NCBI GenBank assembly: GCA_021234155.1
Contig: JAJEKV010000017.1
Location: 61,152 to 125,151, forward strand
Reading direction: 5' to 3'
Origin: Isoetes taiwanensis
Lineage: Eukaryota > Streptophyta > Lycopodiopsida > Isoetales > Isoetaceae
Length of the DNA stretch: 64,000 nt
The translations under genes were made by a program, and so were the position numbers. The notes beneath the pieces were generated by a model, which had not been told where the DNA came from, did no database searches, and was given only the letters and a program-made list of their open reading frames with translations. Positions 3,373 through 64,000 of this stretch are shown in pieces (the stretch's first letter is position 1; every line of letters begins with the position of its first letter).

Positions 3373-5295
3373 CTAGTAAATGGTACCCAGCGTTGCTGGG
3401 CGTAAGTTGAGAGCTTGTAAATGTTTTGGGCTGCAGTGAGAAAAGCCCTATACCTTTCCCTTTCTGTTTCCTTTTCCCTTTTGCTCTATCCCGTATTTCA
3501 CTTTTTCTTATTTTCTATACACTTTTCTTTTTCTTTTCAGTTTTTTCCCGTTTTTCGCATGTGTTTCCTTATTTCCCCACCTCTTTCCTTCCTTTCCCTC
3601 TTCCCTTTTTCCAATAACCTTTTTCCCTTTCCTTTTCCTCCTTTCCCCACCCTTTCCTTCTTCTCCTTTTTCCATGCCCTTCTCCTTTTCCCTTCACCTT
3701 TTTCCATGCCTTCTCTTTTCCCCACCCTTTTTCCATGCCTTTCCTTTTCCTCAATCTTTTAGCCTTTCGCTTTTTTCCATGCCTATTTTCCCTTATCTTT
3801 TCCTCCATTTCCCAGCCTTTCACTCTTCCCTTTTTTGGATGCCCTTTTGTCCTCCCTTTTTCTTTTTCCCCTCCCGTTTCCCATGCCCTTTTTACCTTCC
3901 CTTTTTCCATCTCCTCACCCTTTCTCCCTTCCCTTTTTCCTTTTCCTATTTTTCTATGTTCCCTTTTTTTCTTCCCTTTTCCTATTTTCCTCTTTTCTTT
4001 TTTCCCGTGCCCTCTCCCCCTTTTCCCCTTTTTCCTCATTTTTTCTTTTCCATTTCTCTTCTCTTACGCCCTTTTTCCCTTCCCTTTTTTTTCACCCCTT
4101 TCTTCTTTCCATTTTTCCTGTGCTTTCCTTTTCCTCCTTTTCCCACCCTTTCCCACTTCTTTTTTTCCCGTGCGATTTTTTCTTCTTTTCCCCCTTCCTT
4201 TTTCTTTTCTCTTTTCCTTTTCCCATGTTTTCTTCCCCTTTTTCCTCTGCTCCCCCGCTTCCCTTCCCTTTTCCCTTTCCTAATGGATTTTTTTTTTTTT
4301 GTTTTTCTACTTTCCCGAACCTTTCCTCGTGCCCTTTTTCCTTCCTTTCCTTTTCCTTTTCCCTTTTCCCAAGCCTTTCCACATTTGTTTTCTTTTCTTA
4401 TTTTCCTATACTCATTTTCCTCTTTTCTCCACCCTTTCTCTCTTTCCCCTTTTTTTTGCCTTTTCTTTTTTCTATTTCTCTGCCATTTTCCTCTTCCCTT
4501 TTATCTCATGCCCTTCCCCCCTTCCTTTTTCTTGTTTCCCTTTTTCCCTTTTTTCTCATGCCTTTTTTTCAGGTTCCCTTTCCCCCTTTTCCCTTTCCTT
4601 TTTCTTTCTTCTCACTTTCCCTTATTTCTTCCTTTCTCCCCATCCTTTTCTTGTTCTCCCTTTTTCTCTCTTCCTCATTTTCCCAATCTTTTTTGCTTCC
4701 ATCCATCTTCCTCTCTCTCTTTTCCTTTTCCTTTTCCTTTTCCTTTTCCTTTTCCTTTTCCTTTTCCTTTTCCATTTTTCCCTTCCTTTTTCCTCTTTCT
4801 TCAACGCTTCTCTTTTTCTCCCTTTTCCCATGCCCTTTTTTTCTTCCATTTTCCATGCTTTTTTTCTCCTCCCTTTTCCCCTTTCTTCAATCTTTCCTTT
4901 TTCCTTTTTTTTTCCCGTGCCCTTTCCTCTTCCTTTTACCACTTTGTCTCGTCCCTTTTCCCTCGTGCCCTTCTTTATGTACACCTTTTCCCCTCCCTTT
5001 TTCTTCTTCTTTTTTTTCATTTTTTCATGCCTTTTTCTCTTCTCTTATCCCCACCCTTTTCCCTTTGCTTTTCTCCCTTTGCAAGTGCCTTTTTGCCCTT
5101 CACATTCTCTCTTGTCTCTTCCTTTTCCTTTGAACCTTTTTTCCCTTTACCCTTTCCCCCCTTAAGAGATCAAAGCACGTACCAATCATGGTGGTGGCTC
5201 TGTTTATGATGCAGAATTTCGGCTTGATGATCTCGACCATTCAAATTAGGGCTTGATCCAATCCAAGAATTACGGTATAACATTATAATATAAGA
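3373..5295 (-). mobile_element. Non-autonomous Helitron 1 with 1.7-kb polypurine tract
   Basis: Read on the minus strand, the element begins TCTTATATTATAATG (5,295 downward) and ends CTAG (3,376-3,373). A 3'-subterminal hairpin GCCCAGC-AAC-GCTGGG lies at 3,401-3,386. The host base before TC is A and the base after CTAG is T, the Helitron A|T target. The interrupted array unit reads gctca|ttcga, and uninterrupted units at about 7,533-7,550 contain the joined sequence, so both ends are fixed by empty sites. No Rep/helicase coding sequence is present. Most of the interior (3,449-5,162) is an almost pure purine tract on the element's sense strand, including a (CCTTTT)n run at about 4,713-4,772 on the plus strand. 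It is closely similar to the element at 34,663. Confidence 0.93.
3449..5162. repeat. Long polypyrimidine tract (plus strand) inside Helitron 1
   Basis: About 1.7 kb is almost only C and T on the plus strand, built from irregular CCCTTTTCC-like words with recurrent catgcc or gtgcc interruptions at a few tens of bp. Long F/S/L/P frames on plus and K/E/G/R frames on minus follow from this composition and are not genes. Such tracts can form intramolecular triplex (H-DNA); that is a general property, not something seen here. Confidence 0.95.
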
Positions 5296-5427
5296 TTCGA
5301 TAGCTTCTGATGATCAATTGGACTAACACAATTAGTGAATTATGAGCACGTGTGATAAATTATTTCGATTGTTTCAAACATTACCTGTTGTTCTATTATA
5401 TGGTTAACTTTATCACTAGCTTTATGT

Positions 5428-5518
5428 GCATAGCTGGTGTAGTGGTATCATAGTACCCTCCCACGGTACTGACCAGGAAAATACGGTACTGACCAGGGTT
5501 CGATTCCCTGGCTATGCA
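5428..5518 (+). pseudogene. tRNA-Gly(CCC) with 20-bp internal duplication, unit 2
   Basis: The gene body is 91 nt instead of 71. The sequence cggtactgaccagg occurs twice (5,464-5,477 and 5,484-5,497), separated by aaaata. The insertion lies between the anticodon and T arms. It does not match the position of a canonical tRNA intron (between nucleotides 37 and 38), so removal by tRNA splicing is unlikely. Both acceptor strands and the T arm remain intact. It could in principle still fold with a very long variable region, but I call it a pseudogene. Confidence 0.8.
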
Positions 5519-5963
5519 ACTGGTCTTCTTTTTGCAGAAGAAAATAGGGGGGAGGAAAATACTTCTTATTTTATCTTTCTTGAAAATATGAGGCATCTTA
5601 TCGTAAACTTGGTAAGAAAATCAATATGCAACCTCTCATATAGTCTCCACAAACAAGAAAATCAACGCAATTCAGTTCATGACTATTTAAGTGATAAGCA
5701 AAAGGCCATGTTTGCAAGTCAAGCTTAAATAATGCATGAAATTTGTTAAGTATATTGATAGTTCTTCAATGTTAATAGAAATAAGATCCTGCCATTCATA
5801 CACAAATGTGATAAAGCACTGGCAAGACTTAATGTCGTAAATTCTCGTATACCTAAAGATTGGATAAATCCAATTTCTTTGGTAATCGTAGATATTTTTG
5901 TGATCCGTTACTTATCACAATAAACAATAATAGATAAATAAAGTATGAACTTGGATGTCTTCT

Positions 5964-6037
5964 GACTTCATGGCCCAACGGATAAGGCGTGATCCACGGG
6001 TTAAACTAGAGATTCCAAGTTGGGACCTTGGTGAAGT
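5964..6037 (+). pseudogene. tRNA-Arg pseudogene, unit 2
   Basis: The 5' half (gacttcatggcccaacggat) is intact. The anticodon arm is replaced by gtgatccacgggttaaacta and no longer pairs or shows ACG. The T arm has become ccaag-ttgggac-cttgg and the 3' discriminator is lost. The flanks within a few bases on each side are nearly identical to those of intact units. Confidence 0.85.
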
Positions 6038-6507
6038 ATAGATTTTTGGGATATTGATTTTCAAATAGGTTACTGGATAGAGTTCAATTTATAGATTTTG
6101 AACGAACATTTGCTTTCTTCTATAGTTCCTTTATAGGTTACGAAATATAGTTCAACTTATAGACTTTGAACAAACTTTTTGGTACATCTATACGAAACAT
6201 AGTTCAACTTATAGACTTTGAACAAACATTTTGGTACATCTATAGTTACTTCAGACCTGTTAATGATTGCTAGGAATTTCTGGCTTGATGGACACGACAT
6301 TTTCTTATGTCATTTTCCTCGGGAGCTATTAATTAATATAATTGGACATCATGTCTTGCCCGACAAGGGCTTTCTTTATTAGCTCATTCGATTCAATTGG
6401 ACTAATACAATTAGTGAATTATGAGGACGTGTGATAAATTATTTCGAGTGTTTCAAACATTACCTGTTGTTCTATTATAGTGGTTAACTTTATCACTAGC
6501 TTTATGT

Positions 6508-6578
6508 GCATAGCTGGTGTAGTGGTATCATAGTACCCTCCCACGGTACTGACTAGGGTTCGATTCCCTGGCTATGTA
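6508..6578 (+). tRNA. tRNA-Gly(CCC), array unit 3
   Basis: The gene is 71 nt with anticodon loop CTCCCAC. Two changes weaken stems to wobble pairs: the first acceptor pair becomes G-T (3' end gctatgt) and the first T-stem pair becomes T-G (tagggttcg). The structure is otherwise normal and probably able to fold. Confidence 0.8.
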
Positions 6579-7038
6579 ACTGCTCTTCTTTTTGCAGAAG
6601 AAAATAGGGGGAGGAAAATACTTCTATTATTTTATCTTTCTTGAAAATATGAGGCATCGTAACGTAAACTTGGTAAGAAAATCAATATGCAACCTCTCAT
6701 ATAATCTCCACAAACAAGAAAATCAACGCAGTTCAGTTCATGACTATTTAAGTGATAAGCAAAAGGCCATGTTTGCAAGTCAAGCTTAAATAATGCATGA
6801 AATTTGTTAAGTATATTGATAGTTCTTCAATGTCAATAGAAATAAGATCCTGCCATTCATACACAAATGTGATAAAGCAGTTTATTGCAATTACTGGCAA
6901 GACTTAATGTCGTAAATTCTGGTATACTTAAAGATTGGATAAATCCAATTTCTTTGGTAATCGTAGATATTTTTGTGATACGTTACTTATCACAATAAAC
7001 AATAATAGATAAATAAAGTATGAACTTGGATGTCTTCT

Positions 7039-7109
7039 GACTTCATGGCCCAATGGATAAGGCGTGATCCTCTGGCCCGGAGATTCAGGTTCGACCCCTG
7101 GTGAAGTCG
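7039..7109 (+). pseudogene. tRNA-Arg pseudogene, unit 3
   Basis: Acceptor strands and T loop are intact. The anticodon arm reads gtgatcctctggcccgg instead of ccagtctacgaaactgg, and two further bases are missing (71 nt). No ACG anticodon remains. Confidence 0.85.
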
Positions 7110-7667
7110 CCTTGGGATATTGATTTTCAAATAGGTTACTGGATAGAGTTCAATTTATAGATTTTGAACGAACATTTGCTTTCTTCTATAGTTCCTTTAT
7201 AGGTTATGAACTATGAGGTTACTGGATAGAGTTCAATTTATAGATTTTGAACGAACATTTGCTTTCTTCTATAGTTCCTTTATAGGTTACGAAACATAGT
7301 TCAACTTATAGACTTTGAACAAACATTTTGGTACATCTATACGAAACATAGTTCAACTTATAGACTTTGAACAAACATTTTGGTACATCTATAGTTACTT
7401 CAGACCTGTTAATGATTGCTAGGAATTTCTGGCTTGATGGACACGACATTTTCTTATGTCATTTTCCTCGGGAGCTATTAATTAATATAATTGGACATCA
7501 TGTCTTGCCCGACAAGGGCTTTCTTTATTAGCTCATTCGATAGCTTCTGATGATCAATTGGACTAACACAATTAGTGAATTATGAGCACGTGTGATAAAT
7601 TATTTCGATTGTTTCAAACATTACCTGTTGTTCTATTATATGGTTAACTTTATCACTAGCTTTATGT

Positions 7668-7738
7668 GCATAGCTGGTGTAGTGGTATCATAGTACCCTC
7701 CCACGGTACTGACCAGGATTCGATTCCCTGGCTATGCA
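7668..7738 (+). tRNA. tRNA-Gly(CCC), array unit 4
   Basis: The gene is 71 nt with a complete acceptor stem and CCC anticodon. One G-to-A change (caggattcg) leaves an A-C mismatch at the base pair next to the T loop. It is probably still foldable, but a reduced-function copy is possible. Confidence 0.75.
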
Positions 7739-8183
7739 ACTGGTCTTCTTTTTGCGGAAGAAAATAGGGGGGAGGAAAATACTTCTTATTTTATCTTTCT
7801 TGAAAATATGAGGCATCTTATCGTAAACTTGGTAAGAAAATCAATATGCAACCTCTCATATAGTCTCCACAAACAAGAAAATCAACGCAATTCAGTTCAT
7901 GACTATTTAAGTGATAAGCAAAAGGCCATGTTTGCAAGTCAAGCTTAAATAATGCATGAAATTTGTTAAGTATATTGATAGTTCTTCAATGTTAATAGAA
8001 ATAAGATCCTGCCATTCATACACAAATGTGATAAAGCACTGGCAAGACTTAATGTCGTAAATTCTCGTATACCTAAAGATTGGATAAATCCAATTTCTTT
8101 GGTAATCGTAGATATTTTTGTGATCCGTTACTTATCACAATAAACAATAATAGATAAATAAAGTATGAACTTGGATGTCTTCT

Positions 8184-8256
8184 GACTTCATGGCCCAACG
8201 GATAAGGCGCCAGTCTACGAAACTGGAGATTCCAGGTTCGACCCCTGGTGAAGTCG
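8184..8256 (+). tRNA. tRNA-Arg(ACG), array unit 4
   Basis: The gene is 73 nt with all stems paired and anticodon ACG. It differs from the unit 1 gene by one base in the D arm (caacgg for caatgg). Confidence 0.93.
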
Positions 8257-8683
8257 CCTTGGGATATTGATTTTCAAATAGGTTACTGGATAGAGTTCAA
8301 TTTATAGATTTTGAACGAACATTTGCTTTCTTCTATAGTTCCTTTATAGGTTACGAAACATAGTTCAACTTATAGACTTTGAACAAACATTTTGGTACAT
8401 CTATACGAAACATAGTTCAACTTATAGACTTTGAACAAACATTTTGGTACATCTATAATGATTGCTAGGAATTTCTGGCTTGATGGACACGACATTTTCT
8501 TATTTCATTTTCCTCGGGAGCTATTAATTAATATAATTGGACATCATGTCTTGCCCGACAAGGGCTTTCTTTATTAGCTCATTCGATACCTTCTAATTAT
8601 CAATTGGACGAACACAATTTCGAGTGTTTCAAACATTACCTGTTGTTCTATTGTAGTGGTTAACTTTATTACTAGCTTTATGT

Positions 8684-8754
8684 GCATAGCTGGTGTAGTG
8701 GTATCATAGTACCCTCCCACGGTACTGACCAGGGTTCGATTCCCTGGCTATGCA
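8684..8754 (+). tRNA. tRNA-Gly(CCC), array unit 5
   Basis: The gene is 71 nt. Acceptor, anticodon (GTACC-CTCCCAC-GGTAC) and T arms are all fully paired. This is the cleanest tRNA-Gly copy, and a TTTTT terminator follows. Confidence 0.95.
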
Positions 8755-9181
8755 ACTGGTCTTCTTTTTGCAGAAGAAAATAGGGGGAGGAAAATACTTC
8801 TATTATTTTATCTTTCTTGAAAAATCAATATGCAACCTCTCATATAGTCTCCACAAACAAGAAAATCAACGCAGTTCAGTTCATGACTATTTAAGTGATA
8901 AGCAAAAGGCCATGTTTGCAAGTCAAGCTTAAATAATGCATGAAATTTGTTAAGTATATTGATAGTTCTTCAATGTCAATAGAAATAAGATCCTGCCATT
9001 CATACACAAATGTGATAAAGCAGTTTATTGCAATTACTGGCAAGACTTAATGTCGTAAATTCTCGTATACTTAAAGATTGGATAAATCCAATTTCTTTGG
9101 TAATCGTAGATATTTTTGTGATACGTTACTTATCACAATAAACAATAATAGATAAATAAAGTATGAACTTGGATGTCTTCT

Positions 9182-9254
9182 GACTTCATGGCCCAATGGA
9201 TAAGGCGCCAGTCTACGAAACTAGAGATTCCAAGTTCGACCCCTGGTAAAGTCG
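9182..9254 (+). pseudogene. tRNA-Arg(ACG), damaged copy, unit 5
   Basis: The anticodon loop CTACGAA is kept, but one mismatch occurs in each of the acceptor stem (taaagtc), the anticodon stem (actag) and the T stem (ccaag). Three broken pairs in three stems make function doubtful, though length and invariant bases are retained. Confidence 0.6.
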
Positions 9255-9718
9255 CCTTGGGATATTGATTTTCAAATAGGTTACTGGATAGAGTTCAATT
9301 TATAGATTTTGAACGAACATTTGCTTTCTTCTATAGTTCCTTTATAGGTTACGAAATATAGTTCAACTTATAGACTTTGAACAAACTTTTTGGTACATCT
9401 ATACGAAACATAGTTCAACTTATAGACTTTGAACAAACATTTTGGTACATCTATAGGTACTTCAGACCTGTTAATGATTGCTAGGAATTTCTGGCTTGAT
9501 GGACACGATATTTTCTTATGTCATTTTCCTCGGGAGCTATTAATTAATATAATTGGACATCATGTCTTGCCCGACAAGGGCTTTCTTTATTAGCTCATTC
9601 GATTCAATTGGACTAATACAATTAGTGAATTATGAGGACGTGTGATAAATTCTTTCGAGTGTTTCAAACATTACATGTTGTTCTATTATAGTGGTTAACT
9701 TTATCACTAGCTTTATGT

Positions 9719-9789
9719 GCATAGCTGGTGTAGTGGTATCATAGTACCCTCCCACGGTACTGACTAGGGTTCGATTCCCTGGCTATGCA
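9719..9789 (+). tRNA. tRNA-Gly(CCC), array unit 6
   Basis: The gene is 71 nt with a complete acceptor stem, CCC anticodon and one T-G wobble at the T-stem base. A TTTTT terminator lies just downstream. Confidence 0.92.
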
Positions 9790-10224
9790 ACTGGTCTTCT
9801 TTTTGCAGAAGAAAATAGGGGGAGGAAAATACTTCTATTATTTTATCTTTCTTGAAAATATGAGGCATCTTATCGTAAACTTGGTAAGAAAATCAATATG
9901 CAACCTCTCATATAGTCTCCACAAACAAGAAAATCAACGCAGTTCAGTTCATGACTATTTAAGTGATAAGCAAAAGGCCATGTTTGCAAGTCAAGCTTAA
10001 ATAATGCATGAAATTTGTTAAGTATATTGATAGTTCTTCAATGTCAATAGAAATAAGATCCTGCCATTCATACACAAATGTGATAAAGCAGTTTGGCAAG
10101 ACTTCTCGTATACTTAAAGATTGGATAAATCCAATTTCTTTGGTAATCGTAGATATTTTTGTGATACGTTACTTATCACAATAAACAATAATAGATAAAT
10201 AAAGTATGAACTTGGATGTCTTCT

Positions 10225-10297
10225 GACTTCATGGCCCAATGGATAAGGCGCCAGTCTACGAAACTGGAGATTCCAGGTTCGACCCCTGGTGAAGTCG
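10225..10297 (+). tRNA. tRNA-Arg(ACG), array unit 6
   Basis: The gene is 73 nt and identical in all stems and loops to the unit 1 copy, with anticodon ACG. Confidence 0.95.
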
Positions 10298-10839
10298 CCT
10301 TGGGATATTGATTTTCAAATAGGTTACTGGATAGAGTTCAATTTATAGATTTTGAACGAACATTTGCTTTCTTCTATAGTTCCTTTATAGGTTATGAACT
10401 ATGAGGTTACTGGATAGAGTTCAATTTATAGATTTTGAACGAACATTTGCTTTCTTCTATAGTTCCTTAATTCAACTTATAGACTTTGAACAAACATTTT
10501 GGTACATCTATACGAAACATAGTTCAACTTATAGACTTTGAACAAACATTTTGGTACATCTATAGTTACTTCAGACCTGTTAATGATTGCTAGGAATTTC
10601 TGGCTTGATGGACACGACATTTTCTTATGTCATTTTCCTCGGGAGCTATTAATTAATATAATTGGACATCATGTCTTGCCCGACAAGGGCTTTCTTTATT
10701 AGCTCATTCGATAGCTTCTAATGATCAATTGGACTAATACAATTAGTGAATTATGAGCACGTGTGATAAATTATTTCGAGTGTTTCAAACATTACCTGTT
10801 GTTCTATTATAGTGGTTAACTTTATCACTAGCTTTATGT

Positions 10840-10860
10840 GCATAGCTGGTGTAGTGGTAT
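10840..10860 (+). pseudogene. Truncated tRNA-Gly, unit 7
   Basis: Only the first 21 nt remain. The sequence jumps from gtagtggtat straight to gaacttggatg, which normally lies just before tRNA-Arg. The two break points share gtat in intact units, so about 470 bp appears to have been deleted between 4-bp microhomologies. Confidence 0.92.
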
Positions 10861-10877
10861 GAACTTGGATGTCTTCT

Positions 10878-10950
10878 GACTTCATGGCCCAATGGATAAG
10901 GCGCCAGTCTACGAAACTGGAGATTCCGGGTTCGACCCCTGGTGAAGTTG
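10878..10950 (+). tRNA. tRNA-Arg(ACG), array unit 7
   Basis: The gene is 73 nt with anticodon ACG. The changes give only wobble pairs (first acceptor pair G-T, and a G-T pair in the T stem), so it probably folds. It sits 17 bp after the truncated tRNA-Gly, so its normal A-rich leader is lost; expression may differ. Confidence 0.82.
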
Positions 10951-11316
10951 CCTTGGGATATTGATTTTCAAATAAGTTACTGGATAGAGTTCAATTTATA
11001 GATTTTGAACGAACATTTGCTTTCTTCTATAGTTCCTTTATAGGTTACGAAACATAGTTCAACTTATAGACTTTGAACAAACATTTTGGTACATCTATAC
11101 GAAACATAGTTAAACTTATAGACTTTGAACAAACATTTTGGTACATCTATAGTTACTTCAGATCTGTTAATGATTGCTAGTAATTTCTGGCTTGATGGAC
11201 ATGACATTTTCTTATGTCATTTTCCTCGGGAGCTATTAATTAAAAATCAAGAAACTTTTCTTTATTAGCTCATTCGATAGCTTCTAATGAATTGGACTAA
11301 CACAATTAGTGAATTA

Positions 11317-13072
11317 CTAGTTAAAAGGTGCCCTTCTTTTTTAGCTAAAATGTAAATGATATCTTTGGAGCAATCATTAAATGGATTCACGCTTTTAAAA
11401 TTAGATAATCAAGAGCATTTGACCACATTTTCCACTTCCCTTACCTTTTCTCTTTCCCTTTTGCCCTTTTTTTTTTTTTTTTTTTTCTATTTTCTATTTT
11501 TTTATTTTTTTCTTTTCCATTATTCCATTTTCCTCATTTCCCTTTTCATTTTTGCTTCCCACTGTTTTTTCCTTTTCTATTTTCCTTCCTTTTCTCAATT
11601 TATGGTTGCCCTTTTTTCGCGTTTCACATTGCCCCCCCTCCCTTTTCCCATTTCCCTCTTCCTCCTTTTCCTTTGGCTTGCCCTTTTTTCCAAGTTTTTC
11701 TTCCCTTTTCCTTTCATTTTCCCTTTCCCTTTCCCTTTTCCCTTTCTTTCTCCCCACCTTTTTTTTTTCCCCTTTTCCCTTCATTTTCCTCCTTTTCCCT
11801 GCCCTTAAGTCTTCCTTTTTTCTAATGCCCTTTTCCTTTTCCTTTCCCCCCCTCTTCCTTTTCCCTTTTTCCATGTCCATTTTCCTTCCTTTTCCCCTTT
11901 CCTCACCTTTTCCCTCTTCACTTTTTTCCCATGTCCCTTTTCTCTTCTATTTTCCCATGCTTTTTTTCGATCCTCTTTTCCCCTTTCTTAACATTTTTCC
12001 TCTTCTTCCTCCTCCCCCCTCCTTTTCCCTCTTTTCCTTCTCTTTTTCTTTTTCTATTTTGCTCTTCCTTTTTGTTCACCTCCCCTTTCTATTTTTCCAT
12101 TTTACCCCCTTTTTGTTCCCCTTTGCCTTTTCTATTTGTTTTTCCATTTTTTTCGTTTGCCTTTCCATTTCCCTCCTGGCTTTTCCCTTTTCTATCTCCC
12201 CTTCATTTTTTTTCCCCTTTTCACATTCCTTTTCCTTTTACCTTTATTTTACTTTTCTCCCATCCCACCCCTTCACTTCCCTTCCCCCCTTCCCCTTTTT
12301 CTTTTTGAATTCTTTTTACCAATGGCCCTTTTCCTTTCTTTTTTCCTCCTCTCCCAACCCTTTCTCTCTTCTTGCTTTTTCCGCCCTTTTTTTCCTTCCA
12401 TTTCCCTCTCGTCGCCTCCTTTTCTTTTATTTTTCCTTTTCTTTTTTTCTCATGTTTTTTTTTTTTTGCTTCCTTTATTTCTCTCCTTTTTTTGATGCCC
12501 TTTCTTCCTTCCCTGTAGTCTTTTTCCTTACCTTTCCTCCATACGTGTTCTTTTTCCTTTTCCCTTTTCTCCTGTCCTCCCCTTTCTCTCTTCCTTTTTA
12601 GCTTCTCTTTTCCTCCTTTTCTCTTTCTCTTTTCCCCATGCCCTTTTCCCTTTTCCCTTTTCCTTCCTTTCCTTCGCTTTTTGCCCTTTTCCTTCGCTTT
12701 TCTACCTTTCATCACCCTTTTTCCTTCCGGTGTCTTTTTTGATCTCCCCCTTCCCCCTTTCTCTTCCCTTTACCTTTTCCATGCCCTTTGCTTTTCCTTT
12801 CCATTTTCCCTTTCCCTTTTTCCTCCCTTTTCTTTTTCTAGGTTTTTCCCCTCTCTTTTCCTTTTTTCCTTTTCCCTTCCCTTTCCTTTTCCTTTTCCCT
12901 TCAACCCCTTTAAATCATCGGATTTGCGCCGTCGTATTGAAGCAGCGATCAAGATTAAATTTTGGTTGAAAACACGCACACGTCATCTTCAAGTTGATCC
13001 ATCAAATCCTCAACCGTCCGTCTAGGGCTGCCATTCACAACAGGACATCTGGTATAATTTTATAATATAAGA
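11317..13072 (-). mobile_element. Non-autonomous Helitron 2 with polypurine tract
   Basis: On the minus strand the element starts TCTTATATTATAAAATTATACC (13,072 downward) and ends CTAG (11,320-11,317), flanked by A and T. The array reads gtgaatta|tgagcacg across the gap, and the joined form exists in other units (for example about 7,577-7,592). The 5' region contains the family-like segment CGGACGGTTGAGGATTTGA (about 13,020). Only a weak AAGG-CCTT hairpin and the palindrome TTTTAGCTAAAA (11,339-11,350) are seen near the 3' end. The interior 11,440-12,903 is pyrimidine-rich on plus. No transposase is encoded. Its sequence is clearly distinct from Helitron 1. Confidence 0.9.
11440..12903. repeat. 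Polypyrimidine tract (plus strand) inside Helitron 2
   Basis: About 1.46 kb of CT-rich sequence with longer pure-T runs than Helitron 1, for example about 20 T near 11,468-11,487. Words are of the CCCTTTTCC type. Open frames here are composition artefacts. Confidence 0.93.
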
Positions 13073-16757: not shown

Positions 16758-16758
16758 A

Positions 16759-24796: not shown

Positions 24797-25223
24797 AAAC
24801 ATTTGATCTTTTCTTCTATAGCCCTTTATAGGTTACAATAATAAAAACATAGTTCAACTTATAGACTTTGAACAAACATTTTGGTACATCTATAAAAACA
24901 AAGTTCAACTTTATAGACTTTGAACAAACATTTTGGTACATCTATAGTTACTTCCGATGACTAAGTAATGATTGCTAGAATTTCGCTTGATGGACAATGA
25001 CATTTTCTTATGTCATTTTCCTCGGGATCTATTAATTAATATAATTGGACATCATGTCTTTTCCGACAAGGGCTTTCTTTATTGGCTCATTCGATAGCTT
25101 CTAATGATCAATTGGACTAATACAATTAGTGAATTATGAGCACGCAGATAAATTATTTCGAGTGTTTCCAAACATTACCCCGTTGTTCTATTATAGTGGT
25201 TAACTTTATCACTAGCTTTATGT

Positions 25224-25292
25224 GCATAGCTAGTGTAGTGGTATCATAGTACCCTCCTGAATGACTTGACGAGGTCGATTCCCCGCTATAAC
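25224..25292 (+). pseudogene. tRNA-Gly pseudogene, block 2
   Basis: The D-arm region has one change (tagtgtagtgg). From the anticodon on it reads cctgaatgacttgacgaggt and the 3' acceptor strand is only gctata, so no cloverleaf forms. Confidence 0.85.
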
Positions 25293-25745
25293 CGGGTCTT
25301 TCTTTTAAGAAAATAGGGGAGGAAAATACTTCATTATTTTATCTTTCTTGAAAATAGGAGGCATCTTATCGTAAAATTGGTAAGAAAATCAATATGCAAC
25401 CTCTCATATAGTCTCCACAAACAAGAAAATCAATCAAGTTGGTTCATGACTATTTAAGGATAAGCAAAAGGCCATGTTTGCAAGTCAAGCTTAAATAATG
25501 CATGAAATTTGTTAAGTATATTGATAGTTCTTCAATGTCAATAGAAATAAGATCCCGCCCATTCATACACAAAATGTGATAAAAGCACTTTATTGCAACC
25601 TTGGCAAGACTTAAATGTAAGAATTCTCAGATACTTAAAGATTGGATAAATCCAATTTCTTTGGTAATCGTAGATATTTTTGTGATATCGCTACTTATCA
25701 CAATAAACAATAATAGATAAATAAAGTATGAACTTGGATGTCTTT

Positions 25746-25816
25746 GACTTCATGGCTCAATGGATAAGGCTTACCACTCTAAACTCGGAGATTCCGTGTT
25801 CGACCCCGTGAAGTCG
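25746..25816 (+). pseudogene. tRNA-Arg pseudogene, block 2
   Basis: The acceptor strands are intact. The anticodon arm reads ttaccactctaaactcgg with no ACG loop, and the T arm is shortened (cgtgttcgaccccg). Confidence 0.85.
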
Positions 25817-26308
25817 CTTTTGGGATATTGATTTTCAAATAGGTTCTTGGATAGAGTTCAATTTATAGATTTTGAACAAACATTTGCTTTCTTATATAGT
25901 TTCTTTAGAACGTTATAGAACTATGAGGTTACCGGATCGAAGTTCAATTTATAGATTTTGAAACTAACATTTGCTTTTTCTATAGTTCCTTTAGTTAATA
26001 AACATAGTTCAACTTATAGACTTTGAACAAACATTTTGGTACATCTATATCTAAACATAGTTCAACTTATAGACTTTGAACAAACATTTTGGTACATCTA
26101 TAGTTACTTCAGACCTGTTAATGATTAATAGTAATTTCGGCTTGATGGACACATTTTCTTATGTCATTTTCCTGAGCTATTAATTAATATAATTGACATC
26201 ATGTCTTGCCCGACAAGGGCTTTCTTTTATTAGCTCATTCGATAGCTTCTAATGATCAATTGGACTAATACAATTAGTGAATTATGAGCACGTGTGATAA
26301 ATTATTTT

Positions 26309-26311
<3 letters not shown>

Positions 26312-26344
<33 letters not shown>

Positions 26345-27513
26345 ATGCAAGATGTTTTGATTTTATTAAACATAGTGGGGTAAGGGGTACACTCACTTTA
26401 CGGGAGTGGCTCCACAATAGGGCCAGATATTCAAATACAAGCACAATGGTCTACCCAATAGTCCGAGACAGAGGATCCAAGGATAAGTACCATTCCTTTC
26501 AGATTGAGGGAAGGTGGAGATTACTCGATGGTCCAAAGTTAAAGCCATCAAGCTCATACCAAGCAAGATCCGCGACAGGTGAAGAGCACCAAGGAGCAAA
26601 TATCATCATGCTGCTAACTTGGCATGGACCATCTTGCTACCAAATTATACTACAAGTGACTCTCCTTCCATTACCTGTCTTATGGGATGTATGCACCTTC
26701 TTCCACAAAGTAGCAATTACACAAACCTGCGCCCGGGGGTGTCCACTGCTTCCTCAAATGCCGCTCACCCTTCTCGCATAGACTTCAACTTCAGGAAGAT
26801 CAACTCACTTAAGGCTCCAGGTTCAGGTTCCCCTTGGAACGCAAGGGACATGGCTCGATGAGTGAGCAACTGTTAAAGAAATCTGGTCTCCCGCCCAAGA
26901 CTTCCTCCTTTAATCTCCTCCGCCCATACCATCTGTCATGAGTTATCCTTCAATCCTAATCTCCCCTAGCCGGGAAAGGGGAAGGACTTGATTTTCGCCC
27001 CCAATGGCAATCATGTCAAGTAGCACAAAAACAGCCGATATGCAAAGCGGGCCAGCCAAACTTGACCAACCGGCCACCAAGAGCGGCTGGATCGGAGCAT
27101 CTGCTTAAAGCGAGCAACCCACAATGAGTGCAGGCCTTCCCACCGCAAGGAGGCAAACATTTACCCCGGCTTCCTATTATAGCTTTAACCTTTGCAAAGG
27201 CCTAAAAATAGGACAAGATTACCTCCGGGCGACCCAATTTAGGCCTCAAGAACTTCGAGGAGATAGGCTGGGCCCCCGATGATGTCCGGGATCTCGAAGA
27301 TGGGCAAAGTTTCGTGCACGGGGATCAAAGGCCGACCACGAAAGCTCTTGCCACAACCTAAATCTGGAAAACAAATCAAGAGGTTGGCTAGCAGCAGGCC
27401 CGGCGCCTGTGCCCTTCCAGCCATGATTTCAAGAGGTTCCGCAGGAACGGGGCCGCCGCCATAAAGTGACGGGGCCCTAAGCGCTTCGAACCTAAACGCC
27501 ATGGCTTCCGTAG
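26312..27513 (-). mobile_element. Retro-insert, copy 2, with 32-nt poly(A) tail
   Basis: The plus strand shows 32 T (26,312-26,343), equal to a poly(A) tail on minus. About 20 nt before it on minus is AATAAA, the canonical polyadenylation signal. The insert is flanked by attttgag (26,304-26,311) and atttcgag (27,514-27,521), an 8-bp target-site duplication with one mismatch. All three features are typical of target-primed reverse transcription by LINE machinery. The 5' end on minus contains an open stretch beginning MAFRFEALRAPSLYGGGPV (about 27,502), not recognised. Copy 1 (1,249-2,378) shares this end and the same target. It may be a processed transcript or a non-autonomous LINE-like element. 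Confidence 0.82.
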
Positions 27514-27579
27514 ATTTCGAGTGTTTCAAACATTACTGTTGTTCTATTATAGTGGTTAACTTTATCACTAGCTTTATGT

Positions 27580-27642
27580 GCATAGCTGGTGTAGTGGTAT
27601 CATAGTACCCTCCAGTGCCGACGGGGTTCGACCGGCTATGTG
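27580..27642 (+). pseudogene. tRNA-Gly pseudogene, block 2
   Basis: The sequence is intact to tagtaccctcc, then reads agtgccgacggggttcgacc. It loses several bases of the anticodon stem and T arm (about 63 nt total). The flanks are nearly identical to intact units. Confidence 0.85.
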
Positions 27643-28086
27643 CTGTTCTTCTTCTTTTAAGAAAAATAGGGGAGGAAAATACTTCTATTATTTTATCTTT
27701 CTTGAAAATATGAGGCATCTTATCGTAAACTTGGTAAGAAAATCAATATGCAACCTCTCATATAGTCTCCACAAACAAGAAAATCAACGCAGTTCAGTTC
27801 ATGACTATTTAAGTGATAAGCAAAAGGCCATGTTTGCAAGTCAAGCTTAAATAATGCATGAAATTTGTTAAGTATATTGATAGTTCTTCAATGTCAATAG
27901 AAATAAGATCCTGCCATTCATACACAAATGTGATAAAGCAGTTTATTGCACTTAATGTCGTAAATTCTCGTATACTTAAAGATTGGATAAATCCAATTTC
28001 TTTGGTAATCGTAGATATTTTTGTGATACGTTACTTATCACAATAAACAATAATAGATAAATAAAGTATGAACTTGGATGTCTTCT

Positions 28087-28159
28087 GACTTCATGGCCCA
28101 ATGGATAAGGCGCCAGTCTACGAAACTGGAGATTCCAGGTTCGACCCCTGGTGAAGTCG
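28087..28159 (+). tRNA. tRNA-Arg(ACG), block 2
   Basis: The gene is 73 nt and matches the block 1 consensus gene in every stem, with anticodon ACG. It is the only clearly intact tRNA in block 2. Confidence 0.94.
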
Positions 28160-29307: not shown

Positions 29308-29504
29308 CCTTGGGATATTGATTTTCAAATAGGTTACTGGATAGAGTTCAATTTATAGATTTTGAACGAACATTTGCTTTCTTCTATCTTCTTATCTTAT
29401 ATTATAATGTTTTAGTGCAAGTAATGGACCACGCCCTAAATCTGACGGCCTGGATTTGATCAATGGTGGAGATGATGCCACGTCCTCAATTTTTTCCTTA
29501 GCCT

Positions 29505-29915
29505 CACGGGTTAGGGTTTTGTGGAGCAGCTCAGGCATGGGTACTCCGGCGTTGAAGTATGTGAGCTTTCTTTTATGGAAAAAAAAAAACTTAGTGCTTT
29601 TACCATTGCTCAGGTGAGAAGGACCGACCGATCAGAGAAAACAGGTTTAGCTTTCTTGAAAACTCTGAGGCTTTCGCTCAAGGGCAACCATGGCTTCTGC
29701 TAGCTTCACCGGTTAGGGTTTTGTGGAGCGGCTCAGGGTTCTAATCATATTGCAGTGCTGAAGGTGGGTACTCTGCCGTGAAGTATGTGAGCTTTCTTTT
29801 TATGGAAAAACAAAAACTTAGGGTTTTACCATTGCTTCGGTGGAGAAGGACCCGACCGATCGAGAAAACAGGTGTAGCTTTCTTGAAAAACTCGAGGCTT
29901 TCGGCTCAAGGGCAA
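29505..29915 (+). repeat. Two tandem copies of a ~200-bp segment in Helitron 4
   Basis: The segments 29,505-29,700 and 29,705-29,915 both run from ggttagggttttgtggagc through agtatgtgagctttctttt, gaccgatcgagaaaacagg and tttc(g)gctcaagggcaacc, with small indels. A further ~100-bp segment (gctccattatcttccca... tgaatgttttcc) is also repeated at about 29,950-30,015 and 30,065-30,130. Confidence 0.8.
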
Positions 29916-30506
29916 CCATAACCGCTAGCATTGCCTCCGGCTACTACAAATGAGCTGCTCCATTATCTTCCCAACTTGCTATTAAGGTCCTATGAATGTT
30001 TTCCAAAAAAAATGCAAGGCCATGGCTTTTGCTAGCATTTTCCTCCCCGGCTACCATAGTCGGGAGTTGCTCCATTGTCTTCCCAAATTGCTATTAAGAA
30101 GGTCCTATGACCGTTTTCTACTGAAAAAAATGCAAGAATGTTTTCTGCAATGTCATTTAGAGAGTTTGTCAAATACTGGCACTTGCCAGGCCATGGTTGC
30201 TCTGGGCATATACAGTGTATTGCCAACACAAAGGCATAGGAGCTGGAGCAGAGGACAATGCGGTTGTGCTGGGTAAGTTGATAAGCAATTTTTTTTTTGT
30301 TTTTGAGCTTTGTCTATTTGTTGTCTCCACAAAAACCAAGCCGAAAGTGATTAGGTTGGGGAGATAAGCCGCTTCTCCATTATGTGCATTGCTTGATGTG
30401 TTGTCATGTTGTGAGGACAATTTAAAGTTTTGACTCCCAAGTAATTTGTTTATACTAAGAATGATATTGAACTAACTGATATTCTTTATGTGAAAAGGGG
30501 GAGAGA

Positions 30507-30850
30507 AATAGTCCGCAGAGTGAATCTGCGCAGAAGCTTTTGCAGAAACTGAAGCCTATCTATTGGTTTTCAGTTCACTTACATACAAAGTTTGCCGCCT
30601 TAGTTGAACAAGGCAGTAATCAAGTGACAAAGCTTATTGCCTTGAACAAATGTCTGCCTGGAAAGTCGTTTTACAGGTGTGTTTTGCATCATTTTCATTA
30701 GCTTAGGATATATGTGAAATGTGGACCTCCTTTTTCATAATGAACAACACTATTAGTAAATCAAAGCTTTAACCCATACCTAAGTTTATTTTCTTCTTTG
30801 GACAGGTCATTGGTATCCCCTCACCAGCAACCGGGCTCCTTGAGCTTTCT
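30507..30850 (+). pseudogene. Captured fragment of RNA lariat debranching enzyme (DBR1)
   Basis: An open exon at 30,507-30,676 translates to ESAQKLLQKLKPIYWFSVHL, then HTKFAALVEQG and KLIALNKCLPGKSF. This matches the conserved C-terminal catalytic-domain segment of DBR1, including the WFSAHLH metal-binding region, here WFSVHLH. DBR1 cleaves the 2'-5' bond of intron lariats in the nucleus. The exon ends at ACAG|GTGTGT, an intron of about 129 bp follows, and a second exon starts after ggacag at 30,806 and reads VIGIPSPATGLLEL before similarity stops. The preserved intron indicates DNA-level capture. One base appears missing at the exon 1 end (frame break before the splice site). Start, N-terminal metallophosphatase motifs and C-terminus are absent, so it cannot encode the enzyme. 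Confidence 0.85.
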
Positions 30851-33234
30851 AGGTTTTATCTTTTTCACGTAACTTGGATGCTAAACCATGGCAAAAATGC
30901 GTTCAAGGTAGCTAATCTACCGTGGATTAATATTTTACTTATTCTTCTCTTGCTAGACTCATGTGCATGGCTTTTCTTTCTTGCGACTTATGATTTGGGG
31001 AACCATGCTAGAAACAATGTCGAGATGTGCAAAGTGCACAAAATATATGAGAATGTCATGAATAGATGGTGTAGCGAGGTGCTTTGGATTGGAAGGCTGA
31101 GATAAGACACAAAATAAGGATCCCATTCCCCACTTACTTTCTATATTGAGTTGCGGTTGATATCCTTTGGAAAAGCAGATTATAGCGGATGATTGTAGAG
31201 CAGTTGCATCGGATATGAATAGATAGCATTGGATATGAACAGATTTCATCAAATTGTAGCGGATAGATTGAGCAGTTAGCGGCCGGACCTACCTTTGTCA
31301 AAGCAGGAGCATATTAGCTAAAATCTTGAGCTTGGCTATGGCGTCTTTTGGCAAGCTATGGGAAAAGGATTTAGAAAGATCGTAACACTCTTTTCTTAAG
31401 CCCATAGCGGGGTTAGAATCATTCAGCTTTAAGAAAGATATATGGTGTTATCACGATTTGGAAGGCCTGTCGTATTTGAAGGCATGATTTAAGCTCTTTG
31501 CAATTTGGAAGGCCTATGGTATTTGTTGGTGTGATTTAAACACACTTCCAATAGGTCCTAAACAAGTTCTGACTACATATCAAAAATTTTGAATAAACAC
31601 TCTACGTATTTTTTTTGTCCTGTCTGATCTAGCATATTGCAAATAAAAGGTGAGTCTGGGGCAAACAATATGGACATCAAATTGCTTATCATGGATGAAT
31701 ACCTTTGGCGAAATGAGCAAGCGGCAAAAATATGCCATTATGTGAGCAAGTCATTCTTTGGGCGTGAGATGGAAGAGAATATCGGTATCAAGCTCTAAGA
31801 CTTGGCTATGGCATTACCGACCTTTTGGCAATCGGATATTCTAACACCTGCTTGTCGGCATAAAGATTTCTTACGCCATATAGAGAAAGCGAGAAAGCTC
31901 TATGAACTTTAGGGTGCTAAGACTGGCGGGGGTATGGCTCAAATGCCAAGGTTTTCTGCTATTGCGAGGTTTAAGTTGGGTCGGTAGCAGGGAGTATTCG
32001 AGGCAAGCATGAATATAAGCTTTGGACGGCATGAGAGCAGGCGGGGTTACCTCTTCTTTGCTCTTAAGGTAAATTTCCACTTTGTACCATGTTGGCCAAT
32101 GCCAAACTAATAGGGTAGTATGCATATTGGTTGCACTGATGTAACTTCTTGCAATCAACTTACCTGCAATGTGAGTATTTATATTTATTCAATGAATTCC
32201 CTTCTCTACCATTACTCAATGGGATATGTTCCAAGTTTTCAAATAACATATTGCTTGATGAAGTCTTTGTATTTGGAAATGTCCAAGGCATTAAAGCTTG
32301 AATCTGTGACATCTGATGCCAGTTGCATATGGTTTGTTCGAATTTCACTTACATCATGCATGACTCCACCCACCACATCGAATTTCACTTACATTCTGTA
32401 GTCAATGTGGAATTCAACTAAAATGCGCCTCAAATGTTGGATTACATGTAAAAATGCTTAAGTATTAACATGTGCATGGGCCTCAAATATTGGACCATCA
32501 TTTGGGTTAAATAAATAAGAAATAGACATTAAGTTTGCATAAACATTAAACACCCTCATATCTCGATTAAGGGTTTGGAAATAAACAATTGTTTCCAATA
32601 TCCTTTATAAAATAGACGTGGCCATCGTGAAGCAAGTCTTGAATGGAAAGAGAAAGCCATTGTTTCATGAACAAAAAGCCTAGAGACATTGGGCACTTTT
32701 TCTATTGTTTATACCTACCCCAACCCCCCCCCCCCTTGGGGGCATTTTTTTGTTTATACGGTGAGTTCAATGATTCATGGGTTTAATGCTGAGATATTGA
32801 AACCAAATATATAGAGCAATATTTTATGTATGGCATGTTATTTACATTTAGGAAGCTCAGAATTTGTGCATGCCATGTACAATTGCAGCATGAGGGGGAA
32901 TGCTTTTTACATGCAATTGCTAGGTCAGACAATTGCAAACAGTTGCTAGGGCAGACAACAACATGACCGTGGAAAGCAAAAGGGGACATGCTCTACACAA
33001 CAATGAAAACAACAACAATGTATCTCTCTAGCATGATCTTCTAATTGTAAAAAGGGTACTTTACTTCAATATGGAGGAAGATTATTGTTATTAATTTTTG
33101 AGAGATTAAAGACTAAACCAAAAGGAAAGTGCCTTAGAACATGCTATGTTTTTAGAACAGAATACTGAGCTAATACCAATCCATTAGGGCATCTCATCGT
33201 TCTCTTGAACATCATTTATACATACTTAACTTAT
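30851..33234 (+). other. Helitron 4 interior without recognised gene
   Basis: The interior is AT-rich. Repeated phrases such as ttggaaggcct...gtatttg occur at 31,460 and 31,507. A 12-C homopolymer lies at 32,724-32,735. No motif-bearing frame was found. Parts may be introns or UTRs of captured genes, but I cannot name a source. Confidence 0.5.
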
Positions 33235-33260
33235 GCCCAGCAACGCTGGGCACCATTACT

Positions 33261-34662: not shown

Positions 34663-36579
34663 CTAGTAAATGGTACCCAGTTCTTTGGGTAAGTTGAAAA
34701 GGCTTTATTAAATGTTTTGGGCTGCGATGAGAAAAGCCCTATACCTTTTCCCTTTCTTTTCCTTTTCCCTTTTTGCTCTATCCCGTATTTTTTTTCTTTT
34801 TTCTATACACTTTTTTCTTTTCAGTTTTTTCCGTTTTTTAGCATGTGTTTCCTTATTTCCCCCCTCTTTCCTTCCTTTCCCTCTTCCCTTTTTTCCAATA
34901 ACCTTTTCCCTTTCCTTTTCCTCCTTTTCCCCACCCTTTCCTTTTCCTCCTTTTCCCCACCCTTTCCTTCTTCTCCTTTTTTTCCATGCCTTCTCCTTTT
35001 CCCTTCCCTTTTTCATACCTTCTCTTTTCCCCACCCTTTTTCCATGCCTTTTCCTTTTCCTCAATCTTTTAGCCTTTAGCTTTTTTTCCATGCCTATTTT
35101 CCTTATCTTTCCTCCATTTCGACCTTTCCTCTTCCCTTTTGGATGCCCTTTTGTCCTCCCTTTTTTTTTTCCCTCCAGTTTCCCATGCCTTTGCCTTCCC
35201 TTTTCCATCTCCTCACCCTTTCTCCCTTCCCTTTTTCCTTTTCCTGTTTTTCTATGTTTCCCTTTTTTTCTTCCCTTTTCCTATTTTCCTCTTTTCTTTT
35301 TCAGTGCCCTCTCCCCTACCCCCTTTTCCTCATTTTTTTCTTTTCCATTTCTCTTCTCTTCGCCCTTTTCCCTTCCCTTGCACCCCTTTCTTCTTTCCAT
35401 TTTCTGTGCTTTCCTTTTCCTCCTTTTCCCACCCCTTTTCCCCCTTTTTTTTTTTTTCCGTCACGATTTTTCTTCTTCTTTTCCCCCTTCCTTTTTCTTT
35501 TCTCTTTTCCTTTTCCATGTTTTCTTCCCTTTTTCCTCTGCTCCCCACTTCCCTTCCTTTTCCCTTTCCTAATGGATTTTTTTTTTGTTTTTCTACTTTC
35601 CCGAACCTTTCCTCGTGCCCTTTTTCCTTCCTTTCCTTTTCCTTTTCCCTTTTCCCAAGCCTTTCCACATTTGTTTTCTTTTCTTATTTTCCTATACTCC
35701 ATTTTCCTCTTTTCTCCACCCTTTCTCTCTTTCCCCTTTTTTTTTTGCCTTTTCTTTTTTCTATTTCTGCCATTTTCCTCTTCCTTTTATCTCATGCCCT
35801 TCCCCCTTCCTTTTTCCTTGTTTCCCTTTTTCCCTTTTTCCTCATACCTTTTTTGGGTTCCTTTCCCCTTTTTCCCTTTCTTTTCTTTCTTCTCACACTT
35901 TCCCTTATTTCTTCCTTTCTCCCCATCCTTTTCTTGTTCTCCCTTTTTCTCTCTTCCTCATTTTTCCCAATCTTTTGCTCTTCCCTTTTTTTCGATGTCG
36001 CTTTCCTTCCATCTCCTCTCCCTCTTTCCTTTTCCTTTTCCTTTTCCTTTTCCTTTTCCTTTTCCTTTTCCTTTTTCCTTTTTCCATTTTCCCTTCCTTT
36101 TTTCCTCTTTCTTTAGCTTCTCTTTTTCTCCCTTTTTTCCATGCCTTTTTTTTCTTCCATTTCCATGCTTTTTCTCCTCCTTTTCCCCTTTCTTCAATCT
36201 TTCCTTTTCCTTTTTTTTTTTTCCGTGCCCTTTCCTCTTCCTTTTTACCACTTTGTCTCGTCCTTTTTCCTCGTACCTTTCCCCGGGTGCCTTTTCCCCT
36301 CCCTTTTCTTCTTCTTTCCTTTTTCATTTTTGCCTTTTCTCTTCTCTTATCCCCACCCTTTTCCCTTTGCTTTTCTCCCTTTTCGGGTGCCTTTTTGCCC
36401 TTCACATTCTCTCTTGTCTCTTCCTTTCCTTTCCCCTTTTCCTTTACCCTTTCCCTTAAGAGATCAAAGTCACGACCAATCATGGTGGTGGCTCGACGGC
36501 GGATGCACTGGATGATCTTTCGACCATTCAAATTAGACTTGAGTCAATCCAAATTACGGTATAACGTTATAATATAAGA
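34663..36579 (-). mobile_element. Non-autonomous Helitron 3 with polypurine tract
   Basis: Minus-strand 5' end TCTTATATTATAACGTTATACC (36,579 downward) and 3' end CTAG (34,666-34,663), with A and T flanking. The 3' hairpin differs from Helitron 1 but stays paired: TACCCA (34,674-34,679) with TGGGTA (34,686-34,691). Both termini and the order of words inside the tract match Helitron 1 closely (for example gatgcccttttgtcctccct and aagagatcaaag), so the two are recent copies. The insertion lies in Helitron 5. There is no coding capacity apart from composition-driven frames. Confidence 0.9.
34739..36453. repeat. Polypyrimidine tract (plus strand) inside Helitron 3
   Basis: About 1.7 kb of CT-rich sequence is collinear with 3,449-5,162. 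It includes a (CCTTTT)n hexamer run at about 36,025-36,075 matching the one at 4,713-4,772. Differences are mostly small indels in homopolymers and loss of GC-containing words. Confidence 0.93.
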
Positions 36580-57240: not shown

Positions 57241-57241
57241 G

Positions 57242-60315: not shown

Positions 60316-60329
60316 TGAATAGAAATATG

Positions 60330-63290: not shown

Positions 63291-63292
63291 CA

Positions 63293-64000
63293 TCTCTATA
63301 TTATAATGTTAGTAATGGACCCACCCCAACTCCACTTCTGTCGAGGATTTGATCGACCAATGGTGATGATGTGTGCGCGTTCAACTAAAAATTTTCACCT
63401 TGACTATGCAGCTTCAATATGAAAGAAAAGGAAAAGGAAAAGGAAAAGGGAGGGAAAGGGAAAGGGAAAGGGAAAGGGAAAGGAAAGGGCAAAAGGAAAA
63501 GGGAAAAGGGGAAGGGAAGGGAAAAGGAAAACGAAGCGAAAGGGAAAAAGGGAAAAGGAAACTAAAAGGGAAGGGAAAGGTGGAAAACGATGAAAGGGAA
63601 AGGGAAAAGGAAAACGATGAAATAGGAAAAGGTAAAAGGAAAGGGAAGGGAAAAGAAAAAAGATGAAAGTGGTGCGAAAACTAAAAGGAAAATAGGGAAA
63701 AGGAAAAGGAAAAGGACTGAAAAGGAAAACGAAGGAAAGGGAAACTAAAAGGAAGTCTGAAAAGGGAAGGAAAAGGAAAATGATGAAAGGGAAAAGGAAA
63801 AGGGAAAAGGGAAAGGAAAAGGGAAGGGGAAAAGGAAAACGATGAAAGGGAAAAAGGAAAAGGAAAAGGAAAAAGGAAAAGGGGAAGGGAAAAGGAAAAA
63901 CTATGAAAGGGAAAAGGGAAAAGGGAAGAGGAGAAGGAAAAGGAACAACGATGAAAGGGAAAAAGGGAAAAGCAATACGTAAATTGAACGGAAGTAATAT
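63293..64000 (+). mobile_element. Helitron 6, 5' part with polypurine tract (runs off window)
   Basis: The sequence A|TCTCTATATTATAATG at 63,292-63,308 is followed by agtaatggaccc and tgatcgaccaatggtgatga, matching the 5' region of Helitrons 4 and 5. From 63,419 to the window edge the plus strand is almost only G and A (gggaaaaggaaaacgatgaa words). This is the same polarity relative to the element as the tracts in Helitrons 1-3, which lie in the opposite orientation. The 3' end is outside the window. Confidence 0.85.
63419..63995 (+). repeat. Polypurine tract inside Helitron 6
   Basis: About 580 bp of G/A-rich sequence with irregular words gggaaaagg and the recurrent interruption aacgatgaaaggg about every 40-70 bp. 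The K/G/R/E-rich open frame through it is an artefact. Confidence 0.93.

Follow-up and report, generated by a model that had tools for sequence, protein, structure and literature searches.

A 64,000-nucleotide stretch of the Isoetes taiwanensis genome (contig JAJEKV010000017.1, positions 61,152 to 125,151 of the forward strand; hereafter, the window) contains four transposable elements, designated E1 to E4, that carry a long internal polypurine tract. This locus raises two questions: whether such a tract can be part of a Helitron family, and why it lies on the same strand of each element. We regard the following answer as fairly probable: these are non-autonomous members of a large Helitron family moved in trans, their interior purine array goes back to one or two captures, and its polarity has been maintained by descent. 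The relevant features of the window are listed below.

3373..5295, minus strand: E1, full-length Helitron with a tract, TC...CCCAGCAACGCTGGG...CTAG, at an A|T site (empty site at 7456-7615, 160/160)
3437..5172 (1,736 bp), element on minus strand (pyrimidine on plus): E1 polypurine tract, 89.3% purine on the sense strand
11317..13072, minus strand: E2, tract-bearing Helitron, 5' end TCTTATATTATAAAATT, CTAG end, 3' hairpin unrecognizable
11401..12946 (1,546 bp), element on minus strand (pyrimidine on plus): E2 polypurine tract, 88.7% purine on the sense strand
34663..36579, minus strand: E3, tract-bearing Helitron of the E1 tract lineage (87% over ~2.0 kb), imperfect 3' hairpin
34722..36473 (1,752 bp), element on minus strand (pyrimidine on plus): E3 polypurine tract, 89.2% purine on the sense strand
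63293..64000, plus strand: E4, 5' part of a lineage-B tract-bearing Helitron, 81% to locus L020 over 698 bases, running past the window end
63386..64000 (615 bp, cut by the window end), plus strand (purine on plus): E4 polypurine tract, 89.1% purine
29395..33259, plus strand: related Helitron without a tract, exact family 5' motif at 29395, hairpin CCCAGCAACGCTGGG at 33236-33250 followed by CTTA instead of CTAG
7456..7615, plus strand: empty target site of E1 in a sister unit of a tRNA array, 160/160 identity to the joined flanks

Tract-bearing Helitrons in the window

Tracts in the window were called in sliding 100-bp windows at a threshold of at least 80% purine. In all four elements the purine-rich strand was the sense strand, and the only other tracts in the window were 143 and 199 bp long. 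A first-pass annotation, made from the letters alone, had identified these elements as Helitrons, and this was borne out by TC and CTAG termini in E1, E2 and E3 and by the hairpin and A|T empty site of E1. The layout of E1 is A|TC...CCCAGCAACGCTGGG TACCATTTACTAG|T, and its joined flanks correspond to positions 7456-7615 at 160 of 160 bases without a gap. An exact A|T empty site was found for E1 only; joined flanks of E2 matched array units at 72.5-93.2% with gaps, and no match spanning the junction was found for the joined flanks of E3.

The additional claim that all four elements have standard Helitron ends was correct for the 5' ends and the tracts, but the hairpin CCCAGCAACGCTGGG is intact in E1 only. 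Its counterpart in E3 reads CCCAAAGAACTGGG, E2 and E3 both terminate in CTAG, and the 3' end of E4 lies beyond the window. At the 5' end, E1 has the exact motif, E3 has one mismatch and E2 two, while E4 starts with TCTCTATATTATAATG after A. With up to three mismatches allowed, the 15-base 5' motif occurred 18 times in the window (4.2 +/- 1.9 expected), including two exact matches; six of these matches are a single word found in the tRNA array and not Helitron ends.

Other interpretations of the tracts were considered. Both a long terminal repeat polypurine tract and captured coding cargo were rejected from anatomy and copy number. Long open reading frames across the tracts (up to 511 aa) were rejected as genes and attributed to stop-free composition, since every stop codon needs T and a purine and DNA of pure purine or pure pyrimidine has none.

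The tandem array (window positions ~2,400-11,000 and 24,800-29,400) is composed of units with tRNA-Gly(CCC) and tRNA-Arg(ACG) genes. ARAGORN made 13 tRNA calls, at 2423-10952 and 28087-29309; E1 is located inside an array unit and E2 beside array sequence. The ends of the tract-less relative, at 29395 and 33236-33250, are paired here as one element, which is our reading. At 33,236-33,290, a family-type 3' hairpin lies within a few bases of TTATAATGTTGTGTAATGGACC, a truncated 5' start of the family; this is likely a tandem Helitron junction.

Polarity, abundance and subfamilies across the genome

The assembly searched comprised 1,658,258,908 bases in 1,110 contigs. The exact 17-base 5' motif TCTTATATTATAATGTT had 3,212 matches genome-wide, compared with 1 for the reversed pattern. 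We fetched the first 100 of these matches in contig order, a non-random draw from low-numbered contigs, and called a tract where any 100-bp window within the first 450 bp was at least 80% purine (for a pyrimidine tract, at most 20%). Purine tracts were present in 46 of these 5' ends, pyrimidine tracts in none, and 54 had neither; the base preceding TC was A in 91, T in 5 and G in 4. When the first 60 were scored over 600 bp, the corresponding counts were 23, 0 and 37. The proposal that the tract is always purine-rich on the sense strand therefore held for 4 of 4 window elements and 46 of 46 sampled carriers, with the opposite polarity in 0 of 100. The view that the tract is a family component rather than local slippage was upheld. 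On the other hand, the suggestion that the TCTTATATTATAATG start defines the tract family failed, as 54 of 100 such ends had no tract in the first 450 bp.

The 450-bp rule misses tracts located deeper in an element. Ten tract-less copies were fetched at 2.6 kb, and nine had no tract anywhere. One copy that is tract-less by this rule, L014, has a sense-strand purine stretch of ~180 bp at ~1,170-1,350 bp into the element. Extrapolating roughly from the sample, ~1,500 copies with the exact motif would carry a tract; candidate counts from two 5'-flank searches (1,543 and 1,026) are of the same order, which is a rough comparison. Indirect sequence signs of rolling-circle transposition were also present: exact TTACTAG|TC head-to-tail junctions occurred 117 times genome-wide, and locus L097 (G000:C550:69800-74034) was read as a head-to-tail dimer in which CTAG is joined directly to TC and both units contain a tract.

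Distribution of the tract was assessed on a tree of 99 5' flanks of 110 bases each, which has few columns and many open forks; L019 was excluded because its tract begins inside the flank. Clade A had a tract in 33 of 34 rows and clade B in 11 of 11 (99% SH-aLRT), and there was a lone carrier, L128. The fewest changes in tract state on this tree were 4, of which the starred branches force 2, compared with an average of 32 in shuffles. Given that nearly all tract carriers fall into two clades, the tract is a feature of certain subfamilies in a broader set of Helitrons.

Both subfamilies had a regular anatomy. Among 20 further A1 copies, picked by 5' similarity, 19 had a tract of 1.2-1.8 kb with 88.6-89.6% purine that starts at 121-130 bp; the remaining one, L067, had a tract of 375 bp (86.1% purine). 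In the A1 alignment (22 rows; 7 of 29 were excluded, namely L001, L002, L005, L012, L016 and L017 as other sublineages and L067 as truncated), the tract spans positions 125-1863 of 1,929 bases. The tract had been described as adjoining the 5' end; it does lie near this end, but in A1 it occupies the element from ~125 bp inside the 5' end up to a point 66 bp short of the 3' end. For lineage B, 15 elements at 14 places were picked from 40 scored matches identical over 135 bases, and their tracts, of 1.77 kb to at least 2.13 kb and 90.4-91.9% purine, began at 106-108 bp in all 15. These 40 scored 5' ends, out of 1,026 candidates, were all identical at 135 of 135 bases, implying recent spread of this lineage.

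A scripted search for CTAG and a hairpin detected the 3' end in 14 of 20 A1 copies (the one in L068 is a likely chance match) and in 6 of 15 lineage-B elements, the other copies being truncated, degenerate or extending past the fetched stretch. The hairpin CCCAGCAACGCTGGG was present, exactly or with one or two changes, in 13 of 20 A1 copies, and CCCAGCAAGGCTGGG is the lineage-B hairpin.

These data bear on the trivial explanation that the tracts are microsatellites that happen to lie close to Helitron ends, or an artefact of assembly, which we find scarcely credible. Long-read assembly errors may inflate small tract indels (in pairwise comparison of 16 lineage-B elements, 5,189 of 10,098 gaps were of 1 bp), but for the main claim this explanation is refuted by the constant polarity (46/46), the fixed tract start in 19 of 20 A1 and 15 of 15 B elements, and the copy number, with 79 loci fetched.

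Two further observations concern element ends. L148 and L152 have short pyrimidine inserts (CCTTTTCC-like) in their first 80 bases, in the part of the 5' flank that adjoins the purine tract; they look like a piece of tract copied from the other strand and could fold back on the tract. For the L004-type 5' end, 26 of 41 listed matches are identical to the query over its first 84-92 bases and cease to match beyond this point; these are Helitrons with common ends and different cargo.

RepHel partners and known Helitrons

RepHel genes are plentiful (150 of 1,813 candidates were scored). At the C23 locus, upstream of L038, L101 has a RepHel frame of 994 aa with matches to PIF1 (PF05970, 4.8e-57) and PF14214 (4.1e-30). 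This frame covers positions 109-191 of 191 of Helitron_like_N, and the whole-domain match contains a stop. The L101 RepHel element ends in AATGCCCAGCAACGCTGGGTACCGTTACTAG, i.e., the family hairpin and CTAG, and the 5' end of the next Helitron follows directly. At this locus a lineage-B tract element abuts the RepHel coding sequence, whereas sibling sequences read on without a tract element; the siblings being uninterrupted, the tract element is there as expected for an insertion.

Nine siblings of L101 were examined, with 700 bases fetched for the 3' side of each, and four had this 3' end, either unchanged or with one to a few differences. No tract was found in the 3.2-3.4 kb upstream in any of the nine, the highest value being 72% purine in non-overlapping 100-bp windows. 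One sibling (C1026:13952600-13959629) has the 5' end TCCTATATTATAAAGTT after A (two mismatches), a family-like 3' end and a tract-less first 3.2 kb; its first 64 bases match sampled family 5' ends at 79% at best (E 4e-9). The expectation that RepHel partners share the ends of the family was partly supported: the 3' end or a close variant was present in L101 and four of nine siblings, and a family-like 5' end in this one sibling.

The tract elements are probably non-autonomous and mobilized in trans, as judged from the tract-less RepHel elements that share their ends, a relationship that is supportive but not proof. RepHel transposases recognizing similar ends would move such copies.

Six Rep loci chosen by open reading frame length (L061-L066) were rejected as partners, since none had clear family 5' or 3' ends. 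Among them, L062 had one 5' match with four mismatches, which is at chance level, and its end, GCCCGGCAACGCCGGGC...CTAG, has a hairpin akin to that of the family but distinct from it. The Rep loci L064, L065 and L061, of another Helitron lineage, adjoin purine/pyrimidine stretches of 100-480 bp; runs of N in L061 and L065 score as pyrimidine tract and were disregarded.

Compared with plant-type Helitrons, the tract elements share the 5' TC, a GC-rich hairpin ~10-12 nt upstream of the 3' terminus, the 3' CTAG (CTRR) that follows it, insertion between A and T with no duplication of the target, head-to-tail junctions, and a RepHel (HUH Rep and PIF1) partner with similar ends. They differ in having an interior that is one fixed-strand purine array of 1.2-2.1 kb rather than gene fragments or mixed sequence, and are known from sequence alone. 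Helentrons have Helentron-type ends and T|T insertion, and the repeat units of DINE-TR1 are of mixed sequence. Neither Helentron-type ends nor T|T insertion was found in the tract elements, which have A|T insertion and a CTAG end. The layout of the tract elements is DINE-like in outline, and tandem units within the tracts are weak (mostly 25-45 bp in E1 and, among others, ~49-55 bp in E4). According to the available text of PMC9957191, DINE-TR1 elements have internal tandem repeats with units of ~150 bp, and the DINE/DINE-TR1 Helentrons of Drosophila resemble the tract elements in outline, being non-autonomous rolling-circle elements with two conserved blocks around central repeats and more than 1000 copies; the tract elements differ by an imperfect purine-rich array and Helitron ends (A|T, CTAG). 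A GA-rich motif is also present in the ISX Helitron of Drosophila miranda, where it is functional and involved in MSL binding (PMC6417741, in the part available), but it is one 21-bp motif compared with a kilobase tract here.

With regard to novelty, this is a known kind of Helitron with an unusual interior, internal repeats and a GA-rich motif being already known in Helitrons. We know of no comparable GA-motif function in plants. No Helitron type with a kilobase purine interior was found in the open-licence literature, covered as titles and abstract openings on Helitrons and purine tracts, tandem repeats or lycophytes; in the available text of PMC12273906, internal tandem repeats belong to a Copia element. 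The word Helitron is absent from the main texts of the I. taiwanensis (PMC8566536; main text without supplements) and I. sinensis genome papers, as far as their available text goes.

Origin and maintenance of the purine array

Tract homology was expressed as z scores from 12 Markov shuffles per pair. Within A1 and within B, tracts aligned far above Markov-shuffled controls. L005 and L016 have A-type 5' flanks and B-related tracts (z 5.6-10.6); the L005 tract (z 5.4-7.9 to A1 and 7.1-10.6 to B) links A- and B-type elements, and that of L016 is weakly related to A1 (z 2.0-3.3). The E2 tract had no strong match to any sampled lineage (z 1.7-4.9). L019 is 82.8% identical to L020 over 1,463 bases and has a short 5' end of another kind; it resembles a B tract entered midway. 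These alignments would fit either a single origin with exchange of ends or two origins. At least two unrelated capture events, each taking up a purine microsatellite in the one polarity imposed by the mode of Helitron DNA capture, would agree with two separate 5'-flank clades plus the lone L128, with the two or more changes forced by starred branches, and with weak homology between A1 and B tracts; however, exchange of one tract between different ends is a simpler way to account for L005 and L016, and we consider such repeated capture rather unlikely.

In the explanation that we prefer, a purine seed would have been captured and expanded in a non-autonomous copy, once or twice. In at least two 5'-flank lineages, nearly all of the interior between a 5' end of ~105-130 bp and a 3' end of 30-135 bp is a purine-rich simple-sequence array. 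Asymmetric ends, together with strand transfer from 5' TC to 3' CTAG in the making of each copy, would keep the tract strand fixed, and slippage and indel turnover would alter its sequence while keeping it rich in purines. Because Helitron ends are asymmetric, polarity would be inherited under one or two origins alike, and one or two acquisitions plus descent explain it most simply. Fixed polarity does not in itself imply function, given that descent explains it.

Several observations weigh against this explanation. Among the RepHel siblings, the family 3' end was not found in five of nine within the 700 bases fetched, and a clear family-like 5' end was seen in one of nine only. A1 and B tracts are weakly homologous in direct comparison (z 1.1-4.7), so that a single origin is not established. 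In addition, measured tracts have 86-92% purine, including lineages whose tracts barely align, while substitutions in copies drive the tract toward an equilibrium of ~71% purine in A1 (purine to pyrimidine, 1.07% per site; pyrimidine to purine, 2.6%) or ~88% in lineage B, suggesting that something beyond passive decay may act. Finally, for A1 indels of at least 4, insertions were not richer in purines than deletions (89.7% and 90.0%).

The lineage-B substitution and indel analysis used the 10 of 16 elements with a readable 3' end, and here insertions of at least 4 were 97.2% purine, compared with 91.6% for deletions. Divergence from consensus in lineage B was 7.1% per base in the tract and 1.3% in flanks, which had been pre-selected for identity while the tract alignment is loose; in A1 the two values were 4.7% and 4.6%. 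The purine excess could reflect a near-pure founder that is still decaying, purine-preserving slippage, or selection.

Substitution types at A1 purine sites (22 copies) differed between singletons (354 transitions, 207 transversions) and shared changes (215 and 35; p 1e-11), but flanks showed the same trend. The contrast between tract and flank transversions in 22 rows gave p 0.016, 0.21 and 0.68 when 3, 6 and 10 gap-free neighbours were required, and p 0.33, 0.83 and 0.82 once the three rows of highest divergence had been removed. The deficit of transversions among shared changes could stem from ambiguous alignment and recurrent A<->G changes, and selection for purines is unproven. The L004 interior was tried as a neutral control family and was unusable: besides the query, 1 of 41 listed matches spans the full 800 bases.

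It is conceivable, although we give it a low probability, that the tract is a selected, strand-specific cis part, either structure-free or R-loop-forming, that aids strand transfer and stays at ~90% purine despite sequence turnover. In the structure-free version, a purine strand that cannot fold would leave the 3' hairpin as the sole stop structure and so reduce internal mis-termination, and this too we hold to be doubtful. Predicted single-strand folding of the sense strand was -0.5 to -1.4 kcal/mol per 150 nt in five tracts, whereas five Helitrons that lack the tract and have a comparable GC content gave -11.7 to -14.3. As described in the available text of PMC5876387, it is the top strand that the Helraiser transposase cleaves and joins into junctions, and the corresponding strand here, running from 5' TC to 3' CTAG, is the purine strand; the Helraiser 3' hairpin acts as a terminator, its deletion raising truncations and read-through (PMC4778049, available part). 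Maintenance of the purine content in lineages with hardly alignable tracts, retention of the tract in 44 of the 45 rows that make up clades A and B, and the scarcity of transversions among shared changes (35/250, compared with 207/561 in singletons) also point in this direction. However, the antisense strand folds equally little, which leaves polarity unexplained by folding; the deficit of transversions fades with stricter gap filters and appears in flanks too, so it is not peculiar to the tract; and tract-less subfamilies are abundant too (54/100).

Polarity would matter for an R-loop or G-quadruplex. We consider it quite improbable that the tract acts via transcription, with an R-loop of sense RNA (or a DNA triplex) making the sense strand accessible to the HUH nuclease. 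Sense-strand G-quadruplex motifs numbered 1-3 in each of three tracts (0.5-0.7 in shuffles; antisense, 0), and mirror repeats exceeded shuffles in five tracts (3-18 compared with 1.3-2.7), yet the quadruplex counts are low, and L020 is the only tract with more than a few mirror repeats.

Should the tract be merely inherited, these elements would still represent an abundant Helitron type that repeat annotation could mistake for a simple repeat. Tract Helitrons also provide a ready-made series of copies in which to study slippage in rolling-circle elements. Were the tract selected, it would offer a direct handle on how the sequence and structure of the transferred strand limits Helitron replication, a question that the polarity and the coding partners make testable.

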